Assembly (NCBI GenBank): GCA_009772925.1
Contig: WOUQ01000006.1
Span: 186,001-250,000, forward strand
Source of the DNA: a bacterium
Lineage (GTDB): Bacteria > Pseudomonadota > Gammaproteobacteria > Burkholderiales > Thiobacillaceae
Reading direction: 5' to 3'
DNA length: 64,000 bases
A program made the position numbers and the translations under genes. Below the pieces are notes generated by a model. That model saw only the letters and a list, made by a program, of their open reading frames with translations. It ran no database searches and had not been told where the DNA came from. Position 1 is the first letter of the stretch. Every line of letters begins with the position of its first letter. This document shows positions 1,620-63,365 of the stretch, in pieces.

Positions 1620-3500
1620 ATGGAAAGCACCAGCACGAACAACACATTTCCCTTTCGCCTGTTTTCTCTTCTCTTCACGGCGATTGCCCTGCTGATCCTC
1701 GGCGGCGCCTGGTATGTGGGTGAAGAACGCATCAACGGCGAATTGGAGCTGGCTCGCTCCAACGAGATCGGCACCGTCGTCATGGGGGTACGGCGCCTGG
1801 ATGACGAGCTGCGCGCACCTTTCTATCAGCTGCGCGCCCTCGTCAAGGAAAGGGCCATACGGCAGGCCATCGACGCCAGTGGAAAGCTGAGCGAGCAGGG
1901 TATGGCAACCGCGTTCGCCAGCCTGCTCGCCTTCAACGAGATGTATGACAAGGTGCGCTGGATCGACCAGACCGGGCTGGAGCGGGTGCGGGTCAACGAG
2001 GTGGCAGGCAGCCCGGAAATCGTCCGGGGTGACAAGCTGCGGAACCAGTCGGACAGCTACTACTTCACCGATACCATGCGCCTGAAACCGGGCCAGGTCT
2101 TCATCTCGCCCCTCGACCTGAATGTGGAGCGCGGCAAGGTGGAAATCCCCCACAAGCCCATTCTGCGATTGGCGACACCGGTCCAGGACGACAACGGCGA
2201 GGCGCGTGGCATCCTGGTCCTCGATGTCGCCGCCCGGTACTTCCTCGATTCCTTTACGGACAGCCTGATCGGCGCACGGGATCGCGCCATGCTGCTGAAC
2301 AGCGCGGGTTACTGGCTGGTGAGTCCGCACCCAGAGGATGCATGGGACTTTATGTTCCAACGCAAGAAAACTCTGGGCAGCGCCTATCCGGAAGCCTGGA
2401 AAGCCATCAACCGCATCCCCTCCGGCGAGATGGAGGACGCGAGCGGCCTGTGGATCTGGAGTACCGCCTATCCGCTCAAAGTCACCGACACCAGGGCCAT
2501 CGCCGACATTCCGCGCTGGCTGGTCGTATCGCACCTGCCCGGCAGCGAACTGGCGACGATCCGCACGGATGTCTGGACCTCAATAGGCATCAACACCCTG
2601 ATCCTGCTCAGCCTGTTCGGCATCCTCACCGCCTGGCTGGCGCGGGCTCTGAACGGCCGCACCCGGGCCAAGGTGGAAGCCGCCAAAGCCCATGCCGAAG
2701 CGGCGGTGGCCAACAGCCTGGCGGAAGCGCGCAACCGATTCCGCCTGGTGGTGGAAGCCAACACCAACGGCCTGCTGGTCGTGGACAAGACAGGACGCAT
2801 CGTGCTGGCGAATCCGGCCCTCGAGCGCATGTTCGGTTATGGGCCTGGGGAACTGTTGGGCCAGGCTCTGGAAATCCTGCTGCCCGAGTCCGTGCGTCTT
2901 TTGCACGGCGAACAGTTCACAAACTTCATGGGTTCGCCCACCGCCAGGCCCATGGGTTCGGGGCGGGACCTGAACGGCCGCCGCAAGGACGCCAGCGTGT
3001 TTCCCGTGGAAATCAGCCTGAGCCCCTTTACCGAGAATGGCGAAAGCTACGTGGATGCCTTCGTTGCCGACATTTCGGAGCGCAAACGCATCGAGGCATT
3101 GCATCAGCAAAGCGAAGCGCACTTGCGGCTCCTGCTGCAAACCAACCCCAATGGCCTGCTGGTCCTGAATAACACTGGCCGTATCCAGATGACCAATCCC
3201 GCCCTCGACGAAATGTTCGGTTACGCGCCCGGGGAACTGCTCGATGAATCCATGGAAACCCTGGTGCCCATGGCCAGTCACACCGACAAAATCAGGATGC
3301 GCGCGCAGTACATGGAACATCCCGCCATTGAATCCCTGGGGGTGGAGCTTGATCTAAACGGCGTTCACAAGAACGGCTGTACCTTCCCGATCGAAGTACG
3401 CCTGTCGAGTTTCGACGAGGATGGCCGGACATTCGCTCAAGCCACGATTGTGGACACAACCAGACGCCGGGCGGCCAATAGGCCGTCCGTGTATTTCTAA
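1620..3500 (+). CDS. Membrane sensor protein with periplasmic domain and two PAS domains, no output domain (copy A)
   Basis: About 626 aa. TM1 lies near residues 12-32, followed by a periplasmic Cache-like region of about 280 residues, TM2 near 320-345, PAS1 with PAC from about 370 and PAS2 with PAC from about 502. PAS1 and PAS2 open with similar phrases (NTNGLLVVDKTGRI, NPNGLLVLNNTGRI). The protein ends straight after PAS2; there is no kinase, GGDEF, EAL or HTH domain. The start at 1620 is preferred over ATG 1608 because GGAG lies 6 nt upstream and the paralogue starts at the matching residue. The gene is followed 19 nt later by a DUF3460-like gene. A close full-length paralogue is at 61247-63112. 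Ligand and partner are unknown. Confidence 0.85.
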   Translation: MESTSTNNTFPFRLFSLLFTAIALLILGGAWYVGEERINGELELARSNEIGTVVMGVRRLDDELRAPFYQLRALVKERAIRQAIDASGKLSEQGMATAFASLLAFNEMYDKVRWIDQTGLERVRVNEVAGSPEIVRGDKLRNQSDSYYFTDTMRLKPGQVFISPLDLNVERGKVEIPHKPILRLATPVQDDNGEARGILVLDVAARYFLDSFTDSLIGARDRAMLLNSAGYWLVSPHPEDAWDFMFQRKKTLGSAYPEAWKAINRIPSGEMEDASGLWIWSTAYPLKVTDTRAIADIPRWLVVSHLPGSELATIRTDVWTSIGINTLILLSLFGILTAWLARALNGRTRAKVEAAKAHAEAAVANSLAEARNRFRLVVEANTNGLLVVDKTGRIVLANPALERMFGYGPGELLGQALEILLPESVRLLHGEQFTNFMGSPTARPMGSGRDLNGRRKDASVFPVEISLSPFTENGESYVDAFVADISERKRIEALHQQSEAHLRLLLQTNPNGLLVLNNTGRIQMTNPALDEMFGYAPGELLDESMETLVPMASHTDKIRMRAQYMEHPAIESLGVELDLNGVHKNGCTFPIEVRLSSFDEDGRTFAQATIVDTTRRRAANRPSVYF

Positions 3501-3519: not shown

Positions 3520-3777
3520 ATGGACAGGGCATACGTTTCGGAATTCACGCGTTTCATGAACCAGTACCTGGAACAGCATCCGGAGGTGGTCAGGGATCAG
3601 CAGCGCGGTTGGCAATTGGGTTGGGCTCCGGAAGTTTTACCGGAGGCAGAGCGGGAAGCCGAGCTGGACCTCGTGCCTGACGATGCTTATGGCTTCAATT
3701 GGTCAGCCCGGCGTCCCAGGCCACATCGGCCGAAGAGCATAACCTCAGTATTCATGGGCCATCTCAAGGGTAAATAA
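3520..3777 (+). CDS. Small DUF3460-like protein (copy A)
   Basis: 85 aa, with a good SD (AGAGGAGA) before ATG 3520, 19 nt after the PAS sensor stop, so probably cotranscribed. The N-terminal half (DRAYVSEFTRFMNQYLEQHP, then EVV and DQQRGW) resembles the short DUF3460 family of betaproteobacteria; that assignment is from memory and tentative. The nearly identical N-terminus occurs in the second copy at 63156, also behind a PAS sensor. The C-terminus here is about 16 residues longer (RRPRPHRPKS and beyond) than in copy B and may be a diverged or extended tail. No signal peptide or membrane segment is visible. Function is unknown; the pairing suggests a partner of the sensor. Confidence 0.75.
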   Translation: MDRAYVSEFTRFMNQYLEQHPEVVRDQQRGWQLGWAPEVLPEAEREAELDLVPDDAYGFNWSARRPRPHRPKSITSVFMGHLKGK

Positions 3778-3883: not shown

Positions 3884-4252
3884 TCAGACAGCGCTGCCGA
3901 AGCCCTGGTCCCGGCTTCCGCCCGGCGCTTGCAGGCCGGCGAGCATACAACCCTGGGCCAGAGGGCCCTCGGGGAAAAGCCGATAGAGATACTTGATGCC
4001 GCCGTCGGCATGGAAAGCCTCATCGAGCGCATCATGCAGTGCACGGGCATTCATGGCGGGTTCTTCATGGCGCGCATAGAACTCCTGCAACGCGCGCATG
4101 ACGCGCCAGTGAACTTCGGTCAGGGTCAGCCCTTCCTTCCGGGCCAATTCCTCGGCGATTTCACGGGACCATTCGCTGGGGGCATGAGGGAAATCCGGGT
4201 CGAGCCGGACTTCGTAACCCGGCCGTACGAAATTCTGGGTGGCGTTGTTCAT
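3884..4252 (-). CDS. DsrC/TusE-family sulfur-carrier-like protein with one C-terminal cysteine (copy A)
   Basis: 122 aa. ATG 4252 is chosen over 4288 because AGGAG lies 7 nt upstream. The C-terminal half is DsrC/TusE-like (W in EVHWRVMRALQEFY, then GGIKYLYRLFPEGP and QGCMLAGL). Canonical DsrC carries two cysteines in the C-terminal arm and TusE keeps the penultimate one. Here only the upstream cysteine (QGC) remains, and the tail ends in a glycine-rich FGSAV instead of a penultimate Cys. A redox or regulatory role is therefore more likely than a full trisulfide cycle (inference). It is convergent with the PAS/DUF3460 pair. A relative with the same cysteine pattern sits at 60466-60834 beside the second PAS gene. 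Confidence 0.85.
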   Translation of the reverse strand: MNNATQNFVRPGYEVRLDPDFPHAPSEWSREIAEELARKEGLTLTEVHWRVMRALQEFYARHEEPAMNARALHDALDEAFHADGGIKYLYRLFPEGPLAQGCMLAGLQAPGGSRDQGFGSAV

Positions 4253-28375: not shown

Positions 28376-28382
28376 GCGGCAG

Positions 28383-29432: not shown

Positions 29433-29458
29433 CCCCTCCCGCGCATGCGGGGGAGGGG
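29433..29458. terminator. GC-rich hairpin between convergent crp-like genes
   Basis: CCCCTCCCGC and GCGGGGGAGGGG flank a short GCAT loop. It sits between the stops of two convergent regulators and could terminate either transcript. Confidence 0.45.
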
Positions 29459-29544
29459 CTGGGGAAGAGGGGGAGTTGTACCACCTTGACCTATAGGATG
29501 ATCGGGTTGGCGGGGGGGTAAGCCCGCGCAGGCGGCGAACAGAA

Positions 29545-30285: not shown

Positions 30286-30307
30286 TGTTGAGCGGCGTAG
30301 TTGCGTT

Positions 30308-34167: not shown

Positions 34168-34196
34168 CCCGGCTTGACGGGCTAAAGCCTGACCTG

Positions 34197-34231
34197 AACG
34201 GCGCGATCGCGAGATCGCGCCGTTCTCTTTT
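34197..34231 (+). terminator. Strong intrinsic terminator
   Basis: A 12-bp perfect stem (AACGGCGCGATC / GATCGCGCCGTT) with a GCGA tetraloop is followed by CTCTTTT, 30 nt after the collagen-like gene stop. Confidence 0.85.
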
Positions 34232-34423
34232 GGGCGTGCGACGGGAGGCGGTTATGTGCGCTAGCGTCCAGACGAACGCGAATTTCCACGGCAGGGTGTA
34301 CACCATGCCCCCCTGGGTGAGCGTGGATGCCCCCCTCACCCCGGGCCTGCATCCGGCATTCGAGTCTCGGCGTAACAATCGCCCTGTCGCTTGCCGTGCT
34401 TACCCAACACCCGGAGGGCTCTC

Positions 34424-35143
34424 GTGTCCCGCACTCTGTCAGCTCCCACCCTGCCCGCCACGGTCAATCGCTTGCTCGCGGCCCTGTCAGGCAAGGACCG
34501 CCGCCATGTTCTGGCGGCCTGTGAGCCGGTCGAACTGACGTTTACCGAGGTCCTGGTCGAACCCGGAGAGCGTCTCCGCCACGTGTACTTTCCCACTGAC
34601 AGCTTCATTTCCCTGGTGATGCCGTTGGATGAGCACGCGAGCCTGGAGGTGGGCCTGGTCGGCAATGAAGGCATGTTCGGCATCCCCCTCCTGCTCGGAG
34701 TCAATGTTTCCCCGCTACGCGCCCTGGTGCAGGGCGCGGGTCCGGCGCTGCGCATGGAAGCGGCGCTGTTTCTGCGCGAGCTCGAACGATGCCCAGCGCT
34801 GCAACGCCTGCTCAAGCGCTACCTCTATGTGGTGACGAGACAACTGACGCAAACGGCGGCCTGCAACCGTTTCCACGTGGTGGAGGCGCGTCTTGCCCGC
34901 TGGCTGCTGATGACGGGGGACCGGGCCCACTCGGATGCGTTTCATGTCACCCAGGAATTCCTGGCCGACATGCTTGGTGTGCGCCGCGTCGGCGTCACCA
35001 AGGCCGCCAGCGCGCTGCAGCGCCGCAAGCTGATCAGCTATCGCCGGGGCGATATCACCGTCCTCGACAGGATTGGACTGGAAGCCGCTGCCTGCGGGTG
35101 CTACGAGGCGGACAAGCAGAGCTACGCGCGGATCATGGACTGA
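34424..35143 (+). CDS. Crp/Fnr-family transcriptional regulator (divergent paralogue)
   Basis: 239 aa from GTG 34424 with SD GGAGG 6 nt upstream. Same architecture as the other four copies ([56 protein letters not shown]) but clearly diverged. It is followed 109 nt later by a CFA-synthase-like gene, so it may control membrane-lipid modification (inference). Confidence 0.87.
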
Positions 35144-43348: not shown

Positions 43349-43659
43349 GCGTGCTCCTGTTCAGACTCTGGCGGGGCGGGCCAAGGGCGCAACACCCCTG
43401 GCAGGCGGTCAATGTACCCGCCGGAACGCTGGAAGTGGATGGAATTCTTGTCGCGGGCCTTGGAGGGCGTCCGCCGCCAGGGTCTCCCTTTGTTCGCCAG
43501 CGAACAGACCCGCCGGCCAGGCTGTCGTAATTACACACCATGGTTGTCGGGAACGCCCTTGGCAAGCGCAACAGCAGCTGGATACCCCATCGCTTTCCGC
43601 CGAGGGCCTGCGCTTTCCGGACATTCCCATGCCAGTCATCCCAGACAAGGAGCCCAACG

Positions 43660-44292
43660 ATGAGCGACCTGAACCAGCACATGGCGGAGCGCTACCGCAA
43701 CAACTTCCTCAAGGAAATCGAGGAACAGGCGGAGATGGGCGAGTGGGTGAAGCTGTGCATGCAGTGCGGCCTGTGTTCCGGCTCCTGCCCCACCCATTTC
43801 CACGACGGCTGGGACCACGCCCCCCACGAGATCTTCATGCTGATCCGCGCCGGCAAGCGGGACGAGGTGCTGCAATCCCAGGGCATGTGGATGTGCACCT
43901 CCTGCTACAACTGCTACGTGCGCTGCCCGCGCAAGGTGCCGGTGACCCACGTCATGCACGGCATCGCCGAATACGCCTACCGCATCGGCCGATCACCGAA
44001 GGCCCAGCCCACCCAGCATCTTTCCAAGACTTTCTGGGACAACTGCACCAGGACCGGCCGGGTCAACGAACTGCGCCTCACCCATACCCTCTACTTCAAG
44101 GACGGTATCGTGGCCGGCATCAGGAAGTACCTGGACATGGCCGTCGTCGGCTTGGGGCTGGCCAGGGCCGGCCGCATGAACCCGCTGGAAGCCATCGGCG
44201 GTGGCCACAAGTGCAAGGACAGCAAGGGCATCCAGGCGATGCTGGCCAAGGCGAAGGAATTGGAAGTGAGGCGGAAGGACGGCGAGGGGTGA
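43660..44292 (+). CDS. HdrC-like 4Fe-4S dicluster protein (heterodisulfide-reductase subunit C type)
   Basis: 210 aa, ATG 43660 with AAGGAG 8 nt upstream. Two CxxCxxCxxxCP motifs: CMQCGLCSGSCP and CTSCYNCYVRCP. This arrangement is that of HdrC/GlpC-type proteins, which pass electrons between a flavo-iron-sulfur unit and a CCG-domain protein. No HdrA or HdrB is adjacent, so this is an orphan electron-transfer subunit. A link with the DsrC-like proteins of the window, which are known partners of Hdr-like complexes in sulfur oxidisers, is possible but unproven. Confidence 0.88.
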   Translation: MSDLNQHMAERYRNNFLKEIEEQAEMGEWVKLCMQCGLCSGSCPTHFHDGWDHAPHEIFMLIRAGKRDEVLQSQGMWMCTSCYNCYVRCPRKVPVTHVMHGIAEYAYRIGRSPKAQPTQHLSKTFWDNCTRTGRVNELRLTHTLYFKDGIVAGIRKYLDMAVVGLGLARAGRMNPLEAIGGGHKCKDSKGIQAMLAKAKELEVRRKDGEG

Positions 44293-44614: not shown

Positions 44615-45031
44615 TCAGTACTGGTCCGCCGCCCAGCCATCCAGCTGGGTACACGCTTCCTGTGTGGGCGTATGGGTGTCGTTGCCAAGCATGGGGATGA
44701 AACAGAGATACTCATTGCCGAGGCCATCCGACAGGTTGCGCAAGGGCGCTGCGCCCAGCTTTTCGTAGCCGCGCGCATCCATCAGGATGAATTGATAGTC
44801 CTCCCCCACATAGACCTCCAGCTTGCCGCCGTTGCCGGCGCCGTACTTGGCCCACCAGGTCTCGGGATTGGCGCCGTCGTACAAGGCGGGCATGGCCTGA
44901 TCGCCGTTTTGATGCCAAGCCATGATGGTGGGGTCCAGCATCTGGTTTTCCCTGGCCGCTTGCTTGGCGAGGAGGCTCGCGTTTTCGAAGTTGTGGTCTT
45001 CTCCCAGATATTCGGCATGAACATTGCGCAT
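44615..45031 (-). CDS. Conserved hypothetical protein (possibly AF1514-like)
   Basis: 138 aa from ATG 45031 (AAGGAATAAAA upstream). Cytosolic, W- and N-rich: NVHAEYLGEDHNFENASLLA, IMAWHQNGDQAMPALYDGAN, YVGEDYQFILMDARGYEKLG. I recall a family named after AF1514 with this kind of pattern, but the match is tentative. It is divergent from ndvB. Confidence 0.6.
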   Translation of the reverse strand: MRNVHAEYLGEDHNFENASLLAKQAARENQMLDPTIMAWHQNGDQAMPALYDGANPETWWAKYGAGNGGKLEVYVGEDYQFILMDARGYEKLGAAPLRNLSDGLGNEYLCFIPMLGNDTHTPTQEACTQLDGWAADQY

Positions 45032-45399
45032 TTTTATTCCTTTCGGGAACGGGTGCTTGGTGACCGGCGCTGGCATGGTTGCCGCGCCTCACATACTCTT
45101 TGTACACCCATATCCGACAAATGGAATCAAGTATTTTTGATGGCCTTGGCAGTCCGCTCGACGACGTGCGTCTCGCCCTGTGCAAGCCGCATGACCCGAT
45201 CGGACCGCGCGGCCCATGACCTGAGCGGAAGGTGTCCGAACGAGCGGGTGTATTCTTGCTGAAGCCATTCCCAAGAATGATGCCGCTGCGCCGGGGCGAC
45301 ACCCGGCAGTCAGATTGGCCGGCACAGCGCATCCCCCCTCATCGTCCCCGTGTTGACACTCCACGAGGCGCAACCGCCCAGGGTGGCAGGGAACATCGT
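45032..45399. promoter_or_regulatory. Divergent intergenic region upstream of ndvB
   Basis: 368 nt between the divergent AF1514-like gene and ndvB. The ndvB frame is open from 45232 but homology-like sequence starts only after 45400. No other gene or clear promoter motif was recognised. Confidence 0.35.
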
Positions 45400-48300
45400 A
45401 TGGGACCCGCTTGGCAGGCGTTCAAATCCAGCTTGATCCGTCCATGGTGCCGGCTCGGATTCCGGCTGCCCGGCAGTGGCACGCCATGCCGGCCATTCCA
45501 GGACGAACCGCCGCTACGGGCCGAGTTGTTCAGCAGCGATCAGATGCAACAGCGTGGCGTACAGCTCGCGTCCACCCACCGGCTGGCGCCGGGAAGAATG
45601 CCCGACCAGTTGCTGGCGCGCCTGGACGCGAACGAGCGCGCGCTGGTCCAGACGTGTGAGCAGCTCATGCCGGTGATCGCCGCTAAGCAGCGCATCACAC
45701 CGGCCGGAGAATGGCTGCTCGATAATTTCTATCTCATCGAAGAACAGATCCGCACGGCTCGACACCACCTGCCAAAAGGCTACAGCCTGGAGCTGCCGGC
45801 CTTGATCGAAGGCGTATCGGCCGGACTGCCGCGCGTATACGACCTCGCCCTGGAGACCATCGCCCATGGCGACGGACGGGTGGATCCGGACAGTCTGAGT
45901 CGTTTCATCGCGGCCTATCAGACCGTCACCCCGCTGCGCCTGGGCGAGTTGTGGGCCATCCCCATCATGCTGCGTCTGGCGCTGATCGAGAATCTGCGCC
46001 GCGTCGCGGTGCACATCGGCGCCGGCAGGGGGGAGCGGGATCTGGCCGTTTCCTGGACGGATGCGCTGACGGACATCGCCCGCCAGGATCCCAAGAACCT
46101 GATCCTGGTGATCGCCGACATGGCGCGCTCGAATCCGCCCATGTCCGCCCCCTTTGTCTCGGAATTCGCGCGCCGCCTGCAGGGGCAGGGGCCCGCCCTG
46201 GCCTTGCCCTTGACCTGGATGGAACAGCAACTGGCCGAGACGGGGCTGAGCATCGAGCAGTTGGTGCGCGTGGGAAACCAGCAGCAGGCGGCCGATCAGG
46301 TCTCCATCAGCAACAGCATCGGCAGCTTGCGCTTCCTGGGCACCATGGACTGGCGCGAGTTCGTCGAGAGCATGAGCGTGGTCGAAGGGACACTGCGTGG
46401 GGACCCGGGCGGGGCTTACGCCGGGATGGACTTCGCCAGCCGCGACCGCTACCGCCATGCCGTCGAGGCGATCGCCAAGTCGAGCCGTCTCGCCGAGGAC
46501 GTGGTCGCCGCCCGCGCCATCGAGCTGGCGCGGACGGGCGCGGACGAGGGCATGGCCCACGTCGGCTATTACCTGATCGGGCCGGGTCGGCTGGCGCTGG
46601 AAGGCGCCACCCATGCCCACCTTGCGCTGGGCGCGCGGCTTCGGCGTTGGGCCAGCCGGTCGCCCTTGCTCCTGTATGTGGGCGCCATCACCTTGCTGAC
46701 TCTGCTGATCGCTGCGGGGCTGTCGCTCCAGGCCTGGACCGACGGCGCCGCGGATTGGCTGCTGGTCGTGACGGGTGTGCTCGCGTTGCTGGCCGGCGGT
46801 CAACTCGCCACCGCGCTGGTGAACTGGCTGGCCACCCTGCTGGCGTCGCCGCACCCGCTGCCGCGCATGGACTACGCCACCGGCATCCCGGCGGCATCGC
46901 GCGCCCTGGTGGTGGTGCCCACCATGCTTACCAGCCCCCACAACATCGACAGCCTGGTGGAGGCCCTGGAAGTCCGCTTCCTGGCCAATCGCGACGACAA
47001 CCTGCGCTTTGCCCTGTTGACCGACTTGCGTGATGCGGCACAGGAAAGCCTGCCTCAGGACGCGCCCTTGCTGGAACTGGCCCGGGCGCGCATCGAGGCC
47101 CTGAATGCCCGCTACGGATCGGGCGGCAACGACATCTTCTTCCTGCTGCACCGTCCGCGCCGCTGGAATCCCCACGACAAGGTCTGGATGGGTTACGAGC
47201 GCAAGCGCGGCAAGCTGGCCGAGCTGAACTCCCTGCTGCTCGAAGGCAAGCGGGAAGGTTTCTCCCTGGTGGTGGGCGACATCGCAGCCCTCGCCGGCGT
47301 CAAATACGTGATCACCCTGGACACGGACACCCAGTTGCCCCGCGACGCCGCGCGCCAGTTCGTCGGCGCCATGGCGCATCCGCTCAACCGGCCGGTCCAC
47401 GATGCGACCCTGGGCCGGGTGCGGGCGGGCTACGGCATCCTGCAACCCCGCGTCAGCGTGAGCCTGCCCGGCACCAGCCAGTCCCGCTATGCCCGCCTGA
47501 ACGGCGGCGAGCCGGGCATCGACCCGTACACCCGCGCCGTTTCCGACGTCTACCAGGACGTGTTCCAGGAAGGCTCGTTCATCGGCAAGGGCATCTACGA
47601 TGTCCATGCCTTCGAGCAGGCCCTGAAAGGGCGTTTCCCGGAAAACCGCATCCTCAGCCACGATCTGCTGGAAGGCTGTTACGCCCGCGCCGGGTTGTTG
47701 AGCGACGTGCAGTTGTACGAGGAATACCCGGCCCGCTACGGCGCCGACGTCAATCGCCGCTATCGCTGGATCCGGGGCGACTGGCAACTCGCGTCCTGGC
47801 TGCTGCCCCGGGTGCCCGGCCCGGACGGGCGGCGCCGGAAAAATACGCTTTCCCTGCTGTCGCGCTGGAAGCTGGCCGACAACCTGCGCCGCAGTCTGGT
47901 GCCGGTGGCCTTGACGCTGCTCCTGGTGCTGGGCTGGACGGCGTTTTTCTCCCCCCTGCTCTGGACCCTGGCGGTGCTGGGCGTCCTCCTGATCCCGCCC
48001 CTGCTGGCCACCCTGCTGGATCTGGTGCGCAAGCCGGACGACATGCGGCCGGCCCAGCATCTTGCCGCCGCCGCCCAGGCTGCCGGCCAGCGCTTCGTCC
48101 AGGCCGGCTTCGCCCTGGCGACCCTGCCCCACGAGGCGTTCTACAGCCTGGATGCGATCCTGCGCACCCTCGGCCGCCTGCTGTTCACCCACCAGCGGCT
48201 GCTGGAATGGAACCCTTCCGGCGATCAGGAACTGCAAAGTCGCAGCGACCTGGTCGCCGCGTTCCGCACCATGGCGTTCGCCCCGGTCCTCGCCGTCGGC

Positions 48301-51300
48301 ACGAGCATCGCCCTGGTGACGCTGAATCCGGCCGCACTGCTGGTGGCCGGCCCCATCCTGCTGCTGTGGCTGGCCTCGCCCGTCCTCGCCTGGTGGATCA
48401 GCCTGCCCCTGGCCCGCCGCGAGGTCCGGCTGACGGCCGACCAGACCCGCTTCCTGGGCCGCATCGCACGCAAGACCTGGGCCTTCTTCGAGACCTTCGT
48501 CGGCCCCGACGACCATTGGCTGCCGCCGGACAACTACCAGGAATACCGGGCCGCCACCCTGGCCCACCGCACCTCGCCCACCAACATGGGCCTGGCGCTG
48601 CTGGCCAACCTGTCCGCCCACGATTTCGGCTACATCCCCACCGGGCAACTGATCGAACGCAGCGCCGGCACCCTGGAGACCATGGCGGGTCTGGAACGCC
48701 ATCGCGGCCATTTCTACAACTGGTACGACACCCAGTCGCTGCGCCCGCTGCACCCGATGTATATCTCCACGGTGGACAGCGGCAACCTGGCGGGGCACCT
48801 GTTGACCCTGCGTCCGGGCCTGCTGGCCCTGCTCGATCTCCCCATATTGGAACCCCGCTGCCTGGCCGGCCTGCGCGACACGCTGGAAATACTGGAAGAG
48901 CTTGCGGGCGAACGGGCGCCGACCACCCTGGCCCAATACCGGAGAGACCTGAAAGCGGCATTCGACACCCCGCCGGCCACGCTTTCGGCCATGCGGGTCT
49001 TGCTGGACCGGCTGGCGCAATCCGCCGAGATCATCGCCGCCCACTTCGGCCAGGAACCCGAAAGCCAGACGGCCTGGTGGGCGCGGGCGCTGGCCCGGCA
49101 AGGCCGGGCGGTCCGCGATGAACTGGCCTATCTCGCGCCCTGGGCCGAGCTGCCGGACGCGCCGGACGGATTCGGCGGGTTTGCCGAAATCGACGCGATT
49201 CCGACTTTGCGCACCCTGGCCGGCCTGGCGCTTACCTGGTCGGCCCGTCTCGCCAGCGGTCCGGAGGCAGGCGCGACGCCAGTCCATGCCATCTGGCTGG
49301 TTGCGCTGCGCCGGGACATCGCCCAAGGCAGCGAGCGCGCCCAGGTCCGCATCGCCACCATCCAGCGCCTGGCCCTGCTGGCCGGGGAAATGGCCGACAT
49401 GGAATACGGCTTCCTCTACGACAAGGCGGCGCGCCTGCTCGCCATCGGCTACAACGTCGACGATCGGCGCCGGGACACGAGCTACTACGACCTGCTGGCC
49501 TCGGAAGCCCGCCTCTCCGTGTTCATCGCCATCGCCCAGGGACAACTGCCCCAGGACAGCTGGTTCGCCCTCGGCCGCCTGCTCACCAGCGCCGGCGGCG
49601 AGCCGATCCTGCTGTCCTGGAGCGGCTCCATGTTCGAGTACCTGATGCCGCAACTGGTGATGCCGAATTACGAGCACACCCTGCTGGACCAGACCCTGCG
49701 GGCGGCGGTGGCGCGGCAGATCGAGTACGGCCAGCAGCTCGGCCTGCCCTGGGGCATGTCGGAATCCGGCTACAACACGGTGGACTTGCATCTCAACTAC
49801 CAGTACCGGGCCTTCGGCGTGCCAGGCCTGGGGCTGAAGCGCGGGCTCGGCGAGGACCGGGTGGTGGCGCCCTACGCCTCGGTGATGGCGCTGATGGTGG
49901 CGCCGGAGGCGGCCTGCCAGAACCTGCAACGCCTGTCCGCCCTCGGCGCGGAAGGGCAGTACGGCTTCTTCGAGGCCATCGACTACACCCCGGTGCGGCA
50001 ACGGCGCGGCGAATCCCATGCCCTGGTGCGCTCCTACATGGCCCACCATCAGGGCATGAGCCTGCTGGCCCTGGCCTGGCTGCTGCGGGATCGGCCGATG
50101 CAGCAGCGCTTCACCGCCGATCCCCTGTTGCAGGCCACCCTGCTGTTGCTGCAGGAACGCATCCCCAGGGCATCGGAGTTCTATACCCACATCGCCGAGC
50201 TCAGCGGTCTCCAGGTCGGCGCGGCCAGCCCGGAGATGCCGATCCGGGTGTTGAACGACCCCGATACGCCGGTCCCCGAAGTGCAGTTGCTCTCCAACGG
50301 CCGCTATCACGTCATGCTCACCCAGGCGGGCGGCGGCTACAGCCGCTGGAACGACCTGGCCATGACGCGCTGGCGCGAGGACGGCGTGCGCGACCCCTGG
50401 GGCACCTTCACTTATCTGTGCGACGTCGCAAGCGGTTCCACCTGGTCCACGGCGCACCAGCCCATGCTGCGGCGCGCCGAACATTACGAAGCGATCTTCT
50501 CGGAAGGGCGCGCGGAATTCCGCCGCCGCGATCGGGGTGATGATTTCGATTTCGACACCCACACCGACATCGTCGTCTCGCCGGAAGACGACATCGAACT
50601 GCGCCGGGTGCGCATCACCAACCGGGCAGACAGGCCCCGCACCATCGAGGTCACCAGCTACGCGGAAGTGGTGTTGGCCACGCCCGCCGCCGATGCCCTG
50701 CATCCGGCCTTCAGCAATCTCTTCGTGCAGACCGAGATCGTCGCACCGCGCCAGGCCATCCTCTGCACCCGCCGGCCCCGCTCCCGGGAAGAGCACCCAC
50801 CCTGGATGTTCCACCTGATGTCGGTGCACGATGCCGAAGTCGAGTCCCTCAGCTTCGAGACCGACCGCGCCCGCTTCCTCGGCCGTGGCCGCGGCCCCGC
50901 CGCGCCCCTGGCGATGGAAGCGGCGGGCGCCTTGTCCGGCGGCCAGGGTTCGGTGCTTGATCCGGTGGTCGCCATCCGCTGCCGCATCACTCTGGCGTCG
51001 GAACAATCCGCCAGCGTGGACCTGGTCTACGGCATCGGCGCCAGCCGGGACGCGGTGCTGGCACTGGTCGAGAAGTATCAGGACCGCCGCCTCGCCGACC
51101 GGGTCTTCGAACTGGCCTGGACCCACGCCCAGGTGCTGCTGCGCCAGATCAACGCCAACGAGGCCGACGCCCAGCTCTACGGTCGCCTGGCCAACTCCAT
51201 CCTCCACGCCCATGCCGGGCTGCGCGCCGACGGCAGCGTGCTGACGCGGAACCGGCGCGGCCAGTCCGGCCTCTGGGGCTACGCTATTTCCGGCGACCTG

Positions 51301-54114
51301 CCCATCGTCCTGGTGCGCATCGCCGACCTGGCCAACATCGAACTGGTGCGCCAGCTCATCCAGGCCCATGCCTACTGGCGCCTGAAAGGGCTGGTGGTGG
51401 ACCTGGTGATCTGGAACGAGGACCGCGCCGGCTACCGCCAGGCCTTGCAGGACCATATCCTGGCCCTCGTGGCGGTGGGCCTGGAAAGCCAGGTGATCGA
51501 CCGGCCCGGCGGCATCTTCATCCGCTCGGTGGAACAGATTTCCGAGGAGGACCGCGTCCTGTTCCAGACCGTCGCCCGGGTCATCCTCAGCGACAGCCGG
51601 GGCACCCTGGCGGAACAGCTCGACCGCCCCGGGCCTCCCGTGATCCGTGTGCCGCGTCTGCAACAGGGCCGCCCGCGCCCGGAGGCGGCCGCCGCCTTCG
51701 AGCCGCCGCAACGGGAGCTGATCCTGGCCAACGGCCTGGGCGGTTTCACCCCGGACGGGCGCGAGTACGTCATCACCACCACGCCGGACCAGCTCACCCC
51801 GGCGCCCTGGGTCAACGTGCTGGCCAATCCCCGCTTCGGCAGCGTGATTTCGGAAAGCGGCCAGGCCTATACCTGGGGCGAGAACGCCCACGAGTTCCGC
51901 CTCACCCCCTGGCACAACGATCCGGTCTCCGATCCCGGCGGCGAAGCCTTCTACCTGCGCGACGAGGAGACCGGCGAGTTCTGGTCGCCCACCCCCTTGC
52001 CCCGGCGCGGCGCCACCCCCTACGTCAGCCGCCACGGCTTCGGCTACAGCGTGTTCGAACACACGGAGAGCGGCATCCGCTCGGAACTGTGGGTCTATGT
52101 GGCCACCGACGCGGCGGTGAAGTTCTCGGTGCTCAAGGTGCGCAACCTGTCCGGCCGGCCACGGCGGCTGTCCGCCACCGGTTATGTGGAATGGGTGCTG
52201 GGGGACCTGGGGCCGAAATCGGCCATGCACGTCACCACCGAAGTCGATTCCTACAGCGGCGCGCTCTACGCCCGCAACCCCTACAACACCGAGTTCCCCG
52301 ACCGGGTCGCCTTCTTCGACGTGGACGACGGCAAGCGCACCTTCACCTGCGACCGGGCCGAATTCATCGGCCGCAACGGCAGCCTGGCCAACCCGGCGGC
52401 CCTGCGCCGCACCCACCTGTCCGGCCGGCTGGGCAGTGCCCTGGACCCCTGCGCCGCGCTGCAGGTGGGCTTCAACCTGGACGACGGCCAGGAGCGCGAG
52501 ATCGTCTTCCGGCTGGGAGTGGGTGGCACGCCCAATGGCGAGGACGCCAACCGTCTGGTGCACCGCTTCCGGGGCAACGACGCCGCACGGCGGGCGCTCG
52601 AGGAAGTCTGGCATTTCTGGAACCACAGCCTGGGCGCGGTGCAGGTGGAAACGCCGGACGAGTCCCTCAACGTGCTCAGCAATGGCTGGCTGCTCTATCA
52701 AACCCTGGCCTGCCGCATGTGGGCGCGCAGCGGCTACTACCAGTCCGGCGGCGCCTTCGGCTTCCGCGACCAGTTGCAGGACGCCATGGCCCTGGTCCAC
52801 GCCGAGCCCGGCCTGCTGCGCGCGCAACTGCTGCTGGCTGCCAGCCGCCAGTTCCGCGAAGGCGACGTCCAGCACTGGTGGCACCCCCCCGCCGGGCGCG
52901 GCGTGCGCACCCATTGTTCCGACGATTACCTGTGGCTGGCCCTGGCCACCAGCCGCTACGTGCTGAGCTGCGGCGACACCGGCGTCCTGGAGGAAGCGGT
53001 GCCCTTCCTGGAAGGTCGCCCCCTCAATGCCGACGACGAGTCCTACTACGACCTGCCCGGCCGCTCCGAAGGCACGGAGAGCCTCTATCAACACTGCGTG
53101 CGCGCCATCCGCCACGGGCTGCGTTTCGGCGAGCACGGCCTGCCCCTGATGGGTTCCGGCGACTGGAACGACGGCATGAACCGGGTCGGCATCGGGGGCA
53201 AGGGCGAAAGCGTCTGGCTGGGCTTCTTCCTGATCGAGGTGCTGGGCCAGTTCGGCACCCTGGCCCGCCGCCACGGCGACCCCGCCTTCGCCGAATTCTG
53301 CGCGGCGGAAGGCGACCGTCTGCGCCGGCACATCGAACAGCACGCCTGGGACGGCGCCTGGTACCGTCGCGCCTGGTTCGACGACGGCACGCCCCTGGGC
53401 GCCGCCGCCAACGCCGAATGCCAGATCGATTCCCTCTCGCAAAGCTGGGCGGTGCTGTCCGGCGCCGGCGATCCACAGCGCGCCCGGCGCGCCATGCAGG
53501 CGGTGGACGAACGTCTGGTGCGGCGCGAGTCGGGCCTGGTCCAACTGCTCGACCCGCCTTTCGACAAGACCGACCTGGACCCGGGCTACATCAAGGGCTA
53601 CGTGCCCGGCGTGCGGGAAAACGGCGGCCAGTACACCCACGCCGCCATCTGGGCGGCCATGGCCTTCGCCGCCCAGGGCGACAGCCGCCGCGCCTGGGAG
53701 ATCACCACCCTGATCAACCCGGCCAACCACGCGAAATCAAAGGACGCCATCGCCACCTACAAGGTGGAACCCTACGTCATGGCCGCGGACGTCTACGCCG
53801 TCGCCCCCCACACCGGCCGCGGCGGCTGGAGCTGGTACACCGGCTCCGCCGGCTGGATGTACCGGCTCATCGTCGAATCCCTGCTGGGCCTGCGCCTGGA
53901 GGTGGACAAGCTTCACGTCGCCCCCTGCCTGCCCGCCCACTGGCCTGGGTACAAGGTCCACTACCGTTACCGGGAGACGGTGTATCACATCGCCGTCGTG
54001 CAGCTTGACGCGGCGGGCCTCAGCGTCGATGGGGTCGAGATGGGTGGTCTGGCCATTCCCCTGGTGGATGACCATCGGGAACACACAGTCGAGGTCAGGC
54101 TGAAAGCGCGATGA
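45400..54114 (+). CDS. ndvB: Cyclic beta-1,2-glucan synthase (NdvB/ChvB type)
   Basis: 2904 aa from ATG 45400 (SD AGGGAA), in the size range of Rhizobium/Brucella enzymes. Order: N-terminal region; TM pair near 425-475; GT84 glycosyltransferase (DTDTQLPRD near 640, SHDLLEG near 753, RWIRGDWQ near 788); TM pairs near 830-880 and 950-1005; glycoamylase-like domain about 1340-1570 (SWSGSMFEYLMP, GMSESGYN); then two GH94-type sugar-binding/phosphorylase parts (THCSDDYLWLAL, GSGDWNDGMNRVG, GGWSWYTGSAGWMYR). The protein makes, cyclises and trims periplasmic osmoregulated cyclic glucans at the inner membrane. It is monocistronic; a remnant of a second copy lies at 57531-57841. Confidence 0.95.
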   Translation: MGPAWQAFKSSLIRPWCRLGFRLPGSGTPCRPFQDEPPLRAELFSSDQMQQRGVQLASTHRLAPGRMPDQLLARLDANERALVQTCEQLMPVIAAKQRITPAGEWLLDNFYLIEEQIRTARHHLPKGYSLELPALIEGVSAGLPRVYDLALETIAHGDGRVDPDSLSRFIAAYQTVTPLRLGELWAIPIMLRLALIENLRRVAVHIGAGRGERDLAVSWTDALTDIARQDPKNLILVIADMARSNPPMSAPFVSEFARRLQGQGPALALPLTWMEQQLAETGLSIEQLVRVGNQQQAADQVSISNSIGSLRFLGTMDWREFVESMSVVEGTLRGDPGGAYAGMDFASRDRYRHAVEAIAKSSRLAEDVVAARAIELARTGADEGMAHVGYYLIGPGRLALEGATHAHLALGARLRRWASRSPLLLYVGAITLLTLLIAAGLSLQAWTDGAADWLLVVTGVLALLAGGQLATALVNWLATLLASPHPLPRMDYATGIPAASRALVVVPTMLTSPHNIDSLVEALEVRFLANRDDNLRFALLTDLRDAAQESLPQDAPLLELARARIEALNARYGSGGNDIFFLLHRPRRWNPHDKVWMGYERKRGKLAELNSLLLEGKREGFSLVVGDIAALAGVKYVITLDTDTQLPRDAARQFVGAMAHPLNRPVHDATLGRVRAGYGILQPRVSVSLPGTSQSRYARLNGGEPGIDPYTRAVSDVYQDVFQEGSFIGKGIYDVHAFEQALKGRFPENRILSHDLLEGCYARAGLLSDVQLYEEYPARYGADVNRRYRWIRGDWQLASWLLPRVPGPDGRRRKNTLSLLSRWKLADNLRRSLVPVALTLLLVLGWTAFFSPLLWTLAVLGVLLIPPLLATLLDLVRKPDDMRPAQHLAAAAQAAGQRFVQAGFALATLPHEAFYSLDAILRTLGRLLFTHQRLLEWNPSGDQELQSRSDLVAAFRTMAFAPVLAVGTSIALVTLNPAALLVAGPILLLWLASPVLAWWISLPLARREVRLTADQTRFLGRIARKTWAFFETFVGPDDHWLPPDNYQEYRAATLAHRTSPTNMGLALLANLSAHDFGYIPTGQLIERSAGTLETMAGLERHRGHFYNWYDTQSLRPLHPMYISTVDSGNLAGHLLTLRPGLLALLDLPILEPRCLAGLRDTLEILEELAGERAPTTLAQYRRDLKAAFDTPPATLSAMRVLLDRLAQSAEIIAAHFGQEPESQTAWWARALARQGRAVRDELAYLAPWAELPDAPDGFGGFAEIDAIPTLRTLAGLALTWSARLASGPEAGATPVHAIWLVALRRDIAQGSERAQVRIATIQRLALLAGEMADMEYGFLYDKAARLLAIGYNVDDRRRDTSYYDLLASEARLSVFIAIAQGQLPQDSWFALGRLLTSAGGEPILLSWSGSMFEYLMPQLVMPNYEHTLLDQTLRAAVARQIEYGQQLGLPWGMSESGYNTVDLHLNYQYRAFGVPGLGLKRGLGEDRVVAPYASVMALMVAPEAACQNLQRLSALGAEGQYGFFEAIDYTPVRQRRGESHALVRSYMAHHQGMSLLALAWLLRDRPMQQRFTADPLLQATLLLLQERIPRASEFYTHIAELSGLQVGAASPEMPIRVLNDPDTPVPEVQLLSNGRYHVMLTQAGGGYSRWNDLAMTRWREDGVRDPWGTFTYLCDVASGSTWSTAHQPMLRRAEHYEAIFSEGRAEFRRRDRGDDFDFDTHTDIVVSPEDDIELRRVRITNRADRPRTIEVTSYAEVVLATPAADALHPAFSNLFVQTEIVAPRQAILCTRRPRSREEHPPWMFHLMSVHDAEVESLSFETDRARFLGRGRGPAAPLAMEAAGALSGGQGSVLDPVVAIRCRITLASEQSASVDLVYGIGASRDAVLALVEKYQDRRLADRVFELAWTHAQVLLRQINANEADAQLYGRLANSILHAHAGLRADGSVLTRNRRGQSGLWGYAISGDLPIVLVRIADLANIELVRQLIQAHAYWRLKGLVVDLVIWNEDRAGYRQALQDHILALVAVGLESQVIDRPGGIFIRSVEQISEEDRVLFQTVARVILSDSRGTLAEQLDRPGPPVIRVPRLQQGRPRPEAAAAFEPPQRELILANGLGGFTPDGREYVITTTPDQLTPAPWVNVLANPRFGSVISESGQAYTWGENAHEFRLTPWHNDPVSDPGGEAFYLRDEETGEFWSPTPLPRRGATPYVSRHGFGYSVFEHTESGIRSELWVYVATDAAVKFSVLKVRNLSGRPRRLSATGYVEWVLGDLGPKSAMHVTTEVDSYSGALYARNPYNTEFPDRVAFFDVDDGKRTFTCDRAEFIGRNGSLANPAALRRTHLSGRLGSALDPCAALQVGFNLDDGQEREIVFRLGVGGTPNGEDANRLVHRFRGNDAARRALEEVWHFWNHSLGAVQVETPDESLNVLSNGWLLYQTLACRMWARSGYYQSGGAFGFRDQLQDAMALVHAEPGLLRAQLLLAASRQFREGDVQHWWHPPAGRGVRTHCSDDYLWLALATSRYVLSCGDTGVLEEAVPFLEGRPLNADDESYYDLPGRSEGTESLYQHCVRAIRHGLRFGEHGLPLMGSGDWNDGMNRVGIGGKGESVWLGFFLIEVLGQFGTLARRHGDPAFAEFCAAEGDRLRRHIEQHAWDGAWYRRAWFDDGTPLGAAANAECQIDSLSQSWAVLSGAGDPQRARRAMQAVDERLVRRESGLVQLLDPPFDKTDLDPGYIKGYVPGVRENGGQYTHAAIWAAMAFAAQGDSRRAWEITTLINPANHAKSKDAIATYKVEPYVMAADVYAVAPHTGRGGWSWYTGSAGWMYRLIVESLLGLRLEVDKLHVAPCLPAHWPGYKVHYRYRETVYHIAVVQLDAAGLSVDGVEMGGLAIPLVDDHREHTVEVRLKAR

Positions 54115-60117: not shown

Positions 60118-60321
60118 ATGTCTACCGGTACAGTTAAATGGTTCAACGACGCCAAGGGCTTTGGCTTTATCACCCCTGACGAAGGTGGCGACGATCTGTT
60201 CGCCCACTTCTCGGAAATCCAGGACAGCGGTTTCAAGTCCCTCAAGGAAACCCAGCGAGTCAGTTACGAAGCCCGCAGCGGCCCCAAGGGCATGCAGGCT
60301 TCTTGCATCAAGCTCGTCTAA
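60118..60321 (+). CDS. Cold-shock protein (CspA family)
   Basis: 67 aa. The OB-fold RNA-binding motifs KGFGFI (RNP1) and LFAHF (RNP2) are present, with the family ending QASCIKLV. It is an RNA chaperone. The 208-nt leader 59910-60117 is AT-rich at its start, as usual for thermosensitive csp mRNAs, and has AAAAAGGA before the ATG. A DsrC-like gene follows 144 nt later. Confidence 0.95.
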
Positions 60322-60465: not shown

Positions 60466-60834
60466 ATGCTCGATATCAACAAATCCATCCATGATCCCGC
60501 CCTCTCGATCCAGGATCCGGAAGGCAATCTGTACGACCTTCCGCACTGGTCGCCGGAGCTTGCACAAGGCCTCGCCCTGAAGGATGGGCTGGGGGACTTG
60601 TCGTCCATGCAGTGGCGGGTGATCCACTCCTTGCGGACCACGTACCAATTGCAGGGCAACACGCAGAGCGCGCACCGGCGACTTCGCTCCCTGGCGAAGG
60701 AGTTCGCCACTGAAGGCGGCGGCCGCTACCTCTATCGGTTGTTCCCGCAGGGGCCGGTTAGCCAGGGCTGCCGCCTGGCCGGGTTGCCCTTGCCCGCGTA
60801 TTCGGGGGATGCCTCCTTCGGGTCGTTCAGCTAA
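60466..60834 (+). CDS. DsrC/TusE-family sulfur-carrier-like protein with one C-terminal cysteine (copy B)
   Basis: 122 aa from ATG 60466 (AAAGAGA upstream). N-terminal half LYDLPHWSPELAQGLALKDG; W in SSMQWRVIHSLRTTYQ; C-terminal arm GGGRYLYRLFPQGP and SQGCRLAGLPLP. As in copy A only the upstream cysteine is kept, and the tail ends SFGSFS instead of a penultimate Cys. Length and tail match copy A at 3884-4252. It is directly upstream of the second PAS sensor on the same strand. Confidence 0.85.
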   Translation: MLDINKSIHDPALSIQDPEGNLYDLPHWSPELAQGLALKDGLGDLSSMQWRVIHSLRTTYQLQGNTQSAHRRLRSLAKEFATEGGGRYLYRLFPQGPVSQGCRLAGLPLPAYSGDASFGSFS

Positions 60835-61140
60835 TGCCGCGCCGCTGATCGCGCGACCCCGGTTGGACGTTTAGCCACGGCAGGGTTGTCGTGCGTTCAG
60901 GTACGCCCAACTGAGAAAACCAGGTGTTACGCGGCGGTTTGTACTGAAATGGAAAACCTGGAGCCACGCCCGCAATGGAGTCCAGGCGACGGCTCCGAGG
61001 CGGATTCCGACATTTCAGGCACATGCGGTTCTTTTTGGCGGTCAAGACGCTGCTCCGTCTGGCCCATTTGAGCGCCACGGCACGCGACGACAGGGGTAGC
61101 GACGATACCGGTCGACACACCACGCCCCTCTGATTTCTTC

Positions 61141-61242
61141 CTTTTATCGACATGGATGCCGGCTCCGGTGACGGGACCGGCGCGAGCCATGGCGAAACTG
61201 AGTTGCCTCGGCCCGGACTGCCAGTGCCGAAGATGAACGGAG
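61141..61242 (+). promoter_or_regulatory. Conserved leader upstream of the PAS sensor (copy B)
   Basis: Similar over its whole length to 1511-1613 in front of the paralogous sensor. The remaining gap from 60835 shows no gene; several short reading frames there lack support. Confidence 0.5.
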
Positions 61243-61246
61243 AAAT

Positions 61247-63112
61247 ATGGAAAATGCCACCTCGAACAACACGTTCCCATTTCGCCTGTTTTCCCTGCTC
61301 TTCACGCCGATCGCCCTGCTGATCCTGGCCGGCGCCTGGTACGTGGGGAAAGAACGCATCAACAGCGATCTGGAAATCGCCCGGTCCAACGAGATCGCCA
61401 CCGTCGTCATGGGGGTGCGGCGTCTGGACGACGGGTTGCACGCGCCACTTCACCAATTGCGCACCCTCGTCCGGGAGAACGCCGTGCGGCAAGCCATCGA
61501 CACCGGCGGCCAGGACACCGCCCGGGGCATGGCCACCGCGTTCGCCAGCTTGCTCGCCTTCAACGCGATGTATGACAAGGCGCGCTGGATCGACCAGAAC
61601 GGCATGGAACGGGTGCGCGTCAACGAGGTGGCCGGACGGCCGGAAATCGTTCCGGTGGACAAACTGCAAGATCAGTCCGGCAGCTACTACTTCACCGATG
61701 CCATGCGTCTGCAGCCCGGCCAGATCTTCATCTCGCCCCTAGACCTGAACGTCGAGCGCGGTCAGGTGGAAATCCCCCACAAGCCCATGCTGCGACTGGC
61801 GACGCCGCTTGAGGACGGCAACGGCAAGGCGCGCGGCATCCTGGTCCTCGATGTGGCCGCCCGGTACTTTCTCGATGCCTTCACCGACAGCCTGATCGGC
61901 GCCCGCGGTCGGGCCATCCTGTTGAACAGCGCGGGGTACTGGCTGGTGAGCCCGAACCCGGAAGATACCTGGGGCTTCATGTTCCAGAACGGCAGGACCC
62001 TGGGCAGCGACTATCCGCAGGCCTGGAAAGCGATTACCCGCATCCCGTCGGGCCAGTTCGAGGACGCCAGCGGCCTGTGGATCTGGAGCACTGTCTACCC
62101 CCTCAAGGTCACCGACACGCGGGCCATCGCGGAGATCCCACGCTGGTTGGTCGTTTCACACCTGCCCGGCAGCGAACAGGAGGCGATCCACAACGGCGTC
62201 TGGCGCGCGATCGGCCTCAACACCCTGATCCTGCTCACCCTCTTCGGCATCCTCACCGCCTGGCTGGCGCGGGCCCTGAGCGGCCGTACCCGGGCCAAGG
62301 TGGAAGCGGTCAAGGCCCATGCCGAAGCGGCGGCGGCCAACCGCCTGGCCGAAGTGAGCAACCGCTTCCGCCTGGTGGTGGAAGCCAACGTCAATGGCCT
62401 GCTGGTGGTCGACAAGGCCGGGCGCATCGTTCTGGCAAACCCGGCCCTGGCGCGCATGTTCGGGTATGGACCGGAGGAATTGCCGGGCCAGGCGCTCGAA
62501 GTGCTGTTGCCCGAGGCGGTGCGCTGCCTGCATCGAGAACAGTTTTCGAACTACATGGAGGCGCCCGTCGCCCGACCCATGGGGTACGGGCTGGACCTGA
62601 ACGGCCGCCGCAAGGACGGCAGCGTATTCCCGGTGGAAATCAGCCTGAGCCCCTTTACCGAGAAGGGCGAAGGCTATGTGGACGCATTCGTCTCCGATAT
62701 CTCCGAACGCAAGCGCATCGAGGCGCTGCATCGGCAAAGCGAGGAACGCCTGCGGCGCCTGATGCGAACCAACCCCCATGGCCTGCTGGTCGTCGATGAC
62801 GAGGGTCGCATCCAGATGACCAATCCCGCCCTCGACACCATGTTCGACTACGCGGCCGGCGAACTGCTCGATCAGCCCTTGGAAACCCTGGTGCCCCTGG
62901 TCAGCCGGGCCAACCACGCCCAACTGCGCGCGGGCTATCTGGCGCATCCCGCGACGAGAACCATGGGGGAGGGATTCGATCTACATGGATGTCGCAAGGA
63001 CGGCGGCACATTTCCGGTTGAAGTGAGTCTGGCGAGTTTCGACGAGGATGGCCGGACCTTCGCGCAAGCCACGGTGGTGGACGTTTCCCGGCGCCCGGCC
63101 GATGGCCGCTGA
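61247..63112 (+). CDS. Membrane sensor protein with periplasmic domain and two PAS domains, no output domain (copy B)
   Basis: 621 aa, ATG 61247 with CGGAGAAAT SD. TM1 about 10-29, periplasmic domain about 30-315, TM2 about 318-343, PAS1 from about 368 (NVNGLLVVDKAGRIV), PAS2 from about 500 (NPHGLLVVDDEGRIQM), ending VDVSRRPADGR with no kinase or cyclase. It is a close paralogue of 1620-3500 with most differences spread evenly. The DsrC-like gene lies upstream and the DUF3460-like gene 43 nt downstream. The signal is unknown. Confidence 0.87.
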   Translation: MENATSNNTFPFRLFSLLFTPIALLILAGAWYVGKERINSDLEIARSNEIATVVMGVRRLDDGLHAPLHQLRTLVRENAVRQAIDTGGQDTARGMATAFASLLAFNAMYDKARWIDQNGMERVRVNEVAGRPEIVPVDKLQDQSGSYYFTDAMRLQPGQIFISPLDLNVERGQVEIPHKPMLRLATPLEDGNGKARGILVLDVAARYFLDAFTDSLIGARGRAILLNSAGYWLVSPNPEDTWGFMFQNGRTLGSDYPQAWKAITRIPSGQFEDASGLWIWSTVYPLKVTDTRAIAEIPRWLVVSHLPGSEQEAIHNGVWRAIGLNTLILLTLFGILTAWLARALSGRTRAKVEAVKAHAEAAAANRLAEVSNRFRLVVEANVNGLLVVDKAGRIVLANPALARMFGYGPEELPGQALEVLLPEAVRCLHREQFSNYMEAPVARPMGYGLDLNGRRKDGSVFPVEISLSPFTEKGEGYVDAFVSDISERKRIEALHRQSEERLRRLMRTNPHGLLVVDDEGRIQMTNPALDTMFDYAAGELLDQPLETLVPLVSRANHAQLRAGYLAHPATRTMGEGFDLHGCRKDGGTFPVEVSLASFDEDGRTFAQATVVDVSRRPADGR

Positions 63113-63155
63113 CAGGCCGCACGACCGGCTTGATGGAATCTCAAAGGAGATCGAG

Positions 63156-63365
63156 ATGGACAAGGCATACGTTTCGGATTTCACGCGCTTCATGAACCGC
63201 TATTTGGAACAACACCCGGAAGTGGTTGAGGACCAGCAGCGCGGATGGAGACTCGGCTGGGTCCCGATAATCGATCCGCAGGCATGGCGGGAAGCCGCGC
63301 CGGACTTCGTCGAGGATGATACTTATGGATTCAACTGGTTTACCTGGCGCACCCATGCCCATTGA
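63156..63365 (+). CDS. Small DUF3460-like protein (copy B)
   Basis: 69 aa, ATG 63156 with AAAGGAGA. Residues MDKAYVSDFTRFMNRYLEQH, then DQQRGWRLGW, nearly repeat copy A. It ends DDTYGFNWFTWRTHAH, so it lacks the extra tail of copy A. It follows the PAS sensor as in locus A. The role is unknown. Confidence 0.75.
   Translation: MDKAYVSDFTRFMNRYLEQHPEVVEDQQRGWRLGWVPIIDPQAWREAAPDFVEDDTYGFNWFTWRTHAH

Follow-up and report, generated by a model that had tools for sequence, protein, structure and literature searches.

Two places in the 64,000-nucleotide stretch of a Thiobacillaceae genome analysed here (assembly GCA_009772925.1, contig WOUQ01000006.1, positions 186,001 to 250,000) carry the same three kinds of gene: a membrane sensor without a transmitter domain, a small protein of the DUF3460 family, and a DsrC-like protein that keeps one of the two DsrC cysteines. 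We call this whole stretch the window (G000:C22:186001-250000, where G000 is the source genome of 3.22 Mb in 76 contigs), and its two sites locus A and locus B. This arrangement raises the question whether the three proteins form one signalling unit, as an earlier note made from the letters alone had proposed. We found that the copied unit consists of two genes, sensor and DUF3460, and not of three. Our preferred reading, to which we give a little less than an even chance, is that the sensor and DUF3460 genes of each locus make up a two-gene operon, with an older neighbouring gene outside it, and that the sensor signals to its partner without a kinase. The guessed three-gene module thus gives way to smaller claims that can be tested.

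At locus A, the sensor gene (1620..3500, forward strand, with an alternative ATG at 1608) is followed by the gene of an 85-amino-acid DUF3460 protein (3520..3777, forward), and a DsrC-like gene (3884..4252, reverse) is convergent to this pair. At locus B, the DsrC-like gene (60466..60834), the sensor gene (61247..63112), and the gene of a 69-amino-acid DUF3460 protein (63156..63365) follow each other on the forward strand. All six genes noted earlier proved to be real, with strong Pfam family scores. The small proteins, which had been called DUF3460-like, are full members of PF11943 (50.4 and 48.4 bits for a cut-off of 25; 2.7e-13 for A and 1.1e-12 for B). Their likeness in the N-terminal half was confirmed, but it also includes a C-terminal DD.YGFNW motif; this DD.YGF end differs from the KPY-type end of four core forms of the family (L175, L177, L181, and L184). 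DsrC-like proteins A and B exceed the cut-off of PF04358 (78.0 and 72.1 bits for a cut-off of 24.9; 8.9e-22 and 5.9e-20), and that of TIGR03342 too.

Comparison of the two loci by blastn returned one main block, 1510-3722 in locus A against 61140-63359 in locus B, both on the forward strand, with 79.6% identity over 2226 columns, plus two smaller blocks in which PAS matches PAS. The main block begins about 110 bases 5' of the sensor and stops inside the DUF3460 gene, near its end, leaving both DsrC genes outside. Locus B does repeat the three gene kinds of locus A, as had been claimed, but the DNA repeat covers only sensor and DUF3460. Best local identities were 76% for the sensors, 68% for the DUF3460 proteins, and 45% over 102 residues for the DsrC-like proteins. 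Nei-Gojobori estimates of synonymous (dS) and nonsynonymous (dN) divergence were 0.56 and 0.14 for the sensors (dN/dS 0.25), 0.84 and 0.23 for the DUF3460 genes (dN/dS 0.27), and 2.23 and 0.62 for the DsrC genes. By these values, the duplication of the pair is not recent, and purifying selection acts on both copies. The position of the DsrC genes outside the block, together with their dS of 2.23, indicates that they are not products of the same event. A single duplicated three-gene module is ruled out by the limits of the block and by the placement of the two DsrC proteins in two old clades, described below.

Several observations support sensor and DUF3460 as a pair. The gaps between the two genes are of 19 bases in A and 43 bases in B, with an AGGAG motif before each DUF3460 gene, the two genes were duplicated jointly, and the pair recurs in one further genome, G017, where no DsrC match was found on its 15 kb contig. 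The idea of one unit therefore holds for this pair, probably transcribed together, but not for the membership of DsrC. A recent duplication limited to this strain, a possibility raised in advance, is contradicted for the pair by the sensor dS and by the relative in G017, whereas the three-gene set was indeed seen only in the source genome.

To count gene links, we took pairs within 3 kb in the 19 genomes with a DUF3460 gene or a transmitter-less sensor (116 DsrC, 39 DUF5619 of both forms, 8 DUF3460, and 18 sensors), and compared them with a Poisson expectation for uniform gene positions, contig ends being ignored. DUF3460-sensor pairs numbered 3 against 0.016 expected, or 1 against 0.004 when the source genome was left out. 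Genes were picked with a crude scorer of open reading frames that missed, for example, the DUF5619 gene of G025 and the DsrC gene of locus A; for this reason, links were checked by tblastn and profile searches.

The odd, longer tail of DUF3460 protein A can be explained considering that a dispersed repeat (about 3731-3806), lying beyond the end of the duplication at 3722, supplies its final residues and reaches into the gap towards the DsrC gene. This repeat has many short matches of about 75-80% in G017, G025, G021, G018, and G013, five of which are at most 250 bases from a contig start. A plasmid origin was also considered and rejected: 438 plasmid records matched, none over more than 80% of the query, and the ten matches listed concerned the cold-shock gene only. 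A search for an empty site in G014, the nearest genome by DsrC and by the third sensor, gave only sensor, cold-shock-gene, or short matches.

The sensors themselves have the same architecture: a transmembrane helix, a periplasmic dCache-like domain, a second transmembrane helix, a FixL-like PAS1, and a PAS2. Two hydrophobic stretches (residues 12-30 and 322-340) fit membrane helices. The PF21623 sensor domain is present in both (80.4 and 84.2 bits, cut-off 27), and dCache_1 (PF02743) reaches 39.7 bits in sensor A and 47.5 bits in sensor B for a cut-off of 45. In agreement with the earlier note, they are paralogues that end after the second PAS/PAC, and HisKA, HATPase, GGDEF, and EAL domains were all absent from the Pfam matches of both; the NCBIfam kinase models that match them cover the PAS part. 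By the presence of a HisKA/HATPase transmitter, neither is a sensor histidine kinase.

Using the N-terminal half of sensor B as query, we found 18 genes of this transmitter-less architecture in 16 of the 117 genomes of the family. Three belong to the source genome, the third (L068 6198-8102, on G000:C63) sharing 53% identity with the N-terminal half of B; it adjoins an ABC transporter permease gene, and its relative in G014 adjoins a solute-binding protein gene. Contig ends split the sensor of G035, whose remaining half lies on a different contig and likewise terminates after PAS2; the alignment and tree, from which this sensor was excluded, comprise 17 rows (A, B, and 15 others). In this tree, A and B are sisters (100/98) and G017 comes next (97/95).

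A gap-free alignment to FixL structures (2.4e-16) was obtained for PAS1 of sensor B, which also matches DosP (2.4e-13), and the column of the proximal heme ligand, presumably His200 of FixL, holds His in 17 of 17 rows. In these two respects the sensors resemble the FixL and DosP heme-PAS oxygen sensors, but they differ from them by having no kinase or phosphodiesterase domain, by the periplasmic dCache-like domain in front, and because heme is here predicted from sequence. Sensor neighbours in relatives, a hemerythrin in G038, IscA and NifU in G002, and a Rieske protein in G015, agree with an oxygen, redox, or iron theme, which is a fit and not a proof. In G013, an ANTAR regulator (L070 5773-6363) lies directly downstream of a one-PAS transmitter-less sensor. 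This order recalls the NasS-NasT type, a pairing of a sensor with an ANTAR protein; no ANTAR gene was seen beside locus A or B, unlike in that type. The G013 locus also adjoins nitrate-assimilation-like genes, identified by eye. The transmitter-less FixL-like family thus gains candidate partners.

One such candidate is DUF5619 (PF18505), a family overlooked in the earlier note, which occurs in at least 104 of the 117 family genomes, in short and longer forms. It stands near DsrC, sensor, and DUF3460 genes more often than expected: 5 pairs with DsrC against 0.465 (P 1.2e-4, one of the five, in G017, resting on a DsrC fragment), 2 with DUF3460 against 0.035, and 2 with sensors against 0.071. Without the source genome, the same counts stand against 0.42, 0.024, and 0.054, respectively. 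In G113 and G035, the distance between a DUF5619 gene and the relative of DsrC-like B is at most about 1 kb. The source genome has copies in the window (44615..45031, reverse strand), on C25, and on C26, the last about 3 kb from another DsrC; no DUF5619 gene is near locus A or B. By sequence, DUF5619 has no relative in the PDB (E up to 0.1). One further arrangement was seen in G013 (L160 3999-5330), where a dsrA-like gene (443 amino acids, NIR_SIR domain) with no adjoining dsrB is followed by DUF5619 and then by a DsrC without CysA and CysB; this row of genes adjoins Rrf2-suf-like and DUF192-tgt-like genes (names partly given by eye).

DUF3460 is rarer in the family: PF11943 matched 8 genes in 7 of the 117 genomes, two of them in the source genome. 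Three adjoin a sensor (A, B, and G017), three have a DsrC within 3 kb (A, B, and G038), two lie directly behind a DUF5619 gene (G034 and G047), one is beside suf-like genes (G031), and one stands alone (G001). In G047 the DUF3460 and DUF5619 genes come after those of a molybdopterin enzyme, a 4Fe-4S protein, and a DmsC/NrfD-like subunit; in G031, DUF192-tgt genes are also beside DUF3460 and the suf genes, similar to the G013 neighbourhood. These surroundings (DsrC, soe-like, and suf-like genes) give a hint for DUF5619 and DUF3460, two families named as of unknown function. An AlphaFold model of DUF3460 has three helices (mean pLDDT 66, pTM 0.43), too weak for a fold search, and a PDB search by sequence gave no relative (best E 0.6). 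The protein is probably small and helical, judging from this model.

Taken together, we propose that PAS1 would bind heme and read oxygen, nitric oxide, or redox state, perhaps jointly with a periplasmic ligand. The change in shape of the sensor would then be read in trans by a soluble partner, DUF3460 in this case, instead of being passed on by phosphorylation. In relatives, DUF5619 or the ANTAR regulator may take the place of DUF3460. The DsrC-like protein would be no fixed part of the operon, being drawn from a loosely clustered pool of accessory genes of the sulfur pathway (DUF5619, DUF3460, and variant DsrC), which in some genomes have suf-, soe-, or dsr-like genes as neighbours. The support for a heme-PAS sensor read by a soluble partner consists of the conserved His, the lack of a transmitter, and the tight gene pair.

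Several observations weigh against this proposal. First, the FixL-type His is also found in PAS domains without known heme binding. The matching column of PAS2 has His in 12 of 15 rows and Lys in sensor A, and the PAS1 column that we take to be R220 of FixL, where the 1y28 and 1dp6 chains differ in the alignment, has Arg in 16 of 17 rows and Leu in sensor B, a further difference from FixL. Second, the sensor-DUF3460 pair is known from two genomes only (three loci), and 15 of the 18 sensors have no DUF3460 nearby, although the downstream side of the G029 sensor is cut by a contig end. Third, DUF3460 is widespread: 146 of 300 genomes of the order matched our DUF3460 profile A4 (E at most 1e-5), mostly far below the scores of the window's own proteins, and at 29 DUF3460 loci outside the source genome (1.5 kb flanks) no DsrC, DUF5619, or full-length sensor was found, one of them (L172) having a single-PAS protein. 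Since the family occurs so widely without those neighbours, a dedicated signalling role gains little support, and the same 29 loci rule out DUF3460 as a general partner of DsrC. Six DUF3460 loci from genomes whose names place them outside the family (Gallionella, two Dechloromonas, Accumulibacter, Ferrigenium, and Herminiimonas; flanks up to 6 kb) likewise gave no DsrC, DUF5619, or full-length sensor, and partial PAS matches only; in the two Dechloromonas genomes, DUF3460 is transcribed away from a neighbour read by eye as sufB-like and towards the gene of a stand-alone PAS protein of 139 amino acids. Finally, the P values for linkage treat both genes and genomes as independent, and the loci of G021 and G025 seem to be orthologous and thus to count as one; sensor-DsrC pairs, 2 against 0.21 expected, may reflect a real tie to DsrC (P 0.019, with no correction for the way in which the finding was selected).

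Another explanation is that the sensor acts as a co-receptor whose PAS domains mediate pairing with a longer, output-domain-bearing relative encoded elsewhere, DUF3460 being a passenger. PAS domains commonly dimerise, and distant relatives of the sensors are longer than the transmitter-less kind by frame length, including one in the source genome (G000:C20, an open frame of 779 amino acids, 34% identity), with putative output domains. However, this leaves unexplained why DUF3460 was retained with the sensor after duplication, and we consider it unlikely. We regard as decidedly unlikely that the sensors are remnants of a former kinase or cyclase whose output is gone, in a coincidental neighbourhood. 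No output domain was found in A or B, and two relatives, those of G013 and G113, have a single PAS (510 and 493 amino acids as picked), but transmitter-less frames are present in 16 genomes of several genera and the sensor copies have a dN/dS of about 0.25. Kinase-free signalling from sensor to partner remains our preferred reading.

As for DsrC, the two window proteins have the same reduced cysteine pattern, as had been noted: the cysteine aligned with Cys100 of Allochromatium vinosum DsrC (CysB) is present, and the penultimate one, Cys111 (CysA), is absent. Their closest solved structure by sequence is DsrC 1yx3 (2.9e-23), which we take to be that of A. vinosum. They fall far from the TusE equivalog NF008562 (57.3 and 58.8 bits against 191 needed, with no CysA). 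The source genome has 8 DsrC genes in total, and a dsr operon, judged by eye, is present on C27 (dsrA, B, E, F, H, C, M, and K). In a tree of 62 proteins (65 rows, collapsed to 63 for identical ends, minus a short G017 fragment), A belongs to a clade of 18 (100/100), and B groups with proteins of G113 and G035 in a clade of 3 (100/99). A third DsrC of the source genome (C22:284203-284565) is in a third clade of 19 (98/93), and adjoins a superoxide dismutase gene (by eye) and a DsrC with CysA only.

In these three clades, a Cys after CysB, and with it CysA, is found in 0 of 40 rows, and all have an added tail ending [FMI]G[ST]x(x), FGS in both window proteins; as the 40 rows were collected with profile A3, which was built from tailed proteins, the share of tails describes these clades and not DsrC at large. 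The lack of the penultimate cysteine and the tail ending [FMI]G[ST]xx distinguish the window proteins from known DsrC and TusE. CysB is retained in 35 of 40 rows, with Ser instead in both other members of the B clade (G113 and G035). In A. vinosum DsrC, sulfur is reported to be bound only by the penultimate cysteine, Cys100 being irrelevant for binding (PMC3397948); by that chemistry, the CysA-less proteins are not expected to be persulfide carriers. The known persulfide chemistry should thus not apply to this subfamily, and the DsrC-like protein of each locus, lacking the persulfide-carrying cysteine, is probably a regulator or decoy of the sulfur pathway. Regulatory CysA-less relatives presumably go by the name RspA; open-access searches gave no paper using RspA in this sense. 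The viral dsrC_1 of SUP05 phages, compared by description only, also lacks a C-terminal cysteine and is described as having either no function or a modified one (PMC4164917), but it is a phage gene without the 7-8 residue insertion.

Could sensor, DUF3460, and one-cysteine DsrC nevertheless be a single device, with DsrC as its redox-linked output? Both DUF3460-paired sensors of the source genome have a CysA-less DsrC within 3 kb (the pairs with P 0.019), which keeps this idea alive at low odds, and DUF3460-DsrC pairs number 3 against 0.10 expected, the DUF3460 gene of G038 also adjoining a DsrC. Without the source genome, the counts fall to 1 for DUF3460-DsrC (0.07 expected, P 0.068) and 0 for sensor-DsrC (0.16 expected). 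The three-gene linkage beyond chance in related genomes, set as a test in the earlier note, thus failed: outside the source genome, a DsrC is within 3 kb of none of the 15 sensors and of one of the 6 DUF3460 genes. Some links can be missed in these figures, as 7 of these sensors (G014, G015, G017, G025, G029, G035, and G037) and 2 of these DUF3460 genes (G034 and G047) have a contig end at this distance or nearer. At the 20 loci taken around other DsrC genes (L151-L170, 3.3-16 kb each, many from clades A and B), neither DUF3460 nor a full-length sensor was matched by tblastn, with partial PAS matches on two loci; shorter loci around DsrC relatives, inspected by eye, showed neither. Considering also that the DsrC genes were not copied with the pair, belong to two old clades, and are oriented differently at the two loci, and that the G038 DsrC is of another kind, we judge the three-part device highly doubtful.

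A wider proposal would be that transmitter-less heme-PAS sensors signal through interchangeable small proteins (DUF3460, DUF5619, and ANTAR), which in sulfur oxidisers may act on the Dsr pathway via CysA-less DsrC decoys; we offer it as a long shot. No unit like that of loci A and B is described in the open-access titles and abstract beginnings obtained on DsrC together with PAS proteins or histidine kinases, or on its copy number, paralogues, and cysteine classes, and the open-access literature searched does not mention DUF3460 or DUF5619 by number.

Some other features of the window were recorded. A cold-shock protein gene, identified by eye (60118..60321, forward), is upstream of DsrC-like B, as in G113. 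The DUF5619 gene of the window is convergent with that of a 4Fe-4S protein resembling HdrC (43540-44292, by eye, with Fer4 domains). Similar Crp-like regulator genes, also read by eye, recur across 12.5 kb (22733-35143), at 22733-23470, 28597-29376, 29545-30285, and 34391-35143. Finally, positions 45232-54114 form one open frame of 2960 codons.

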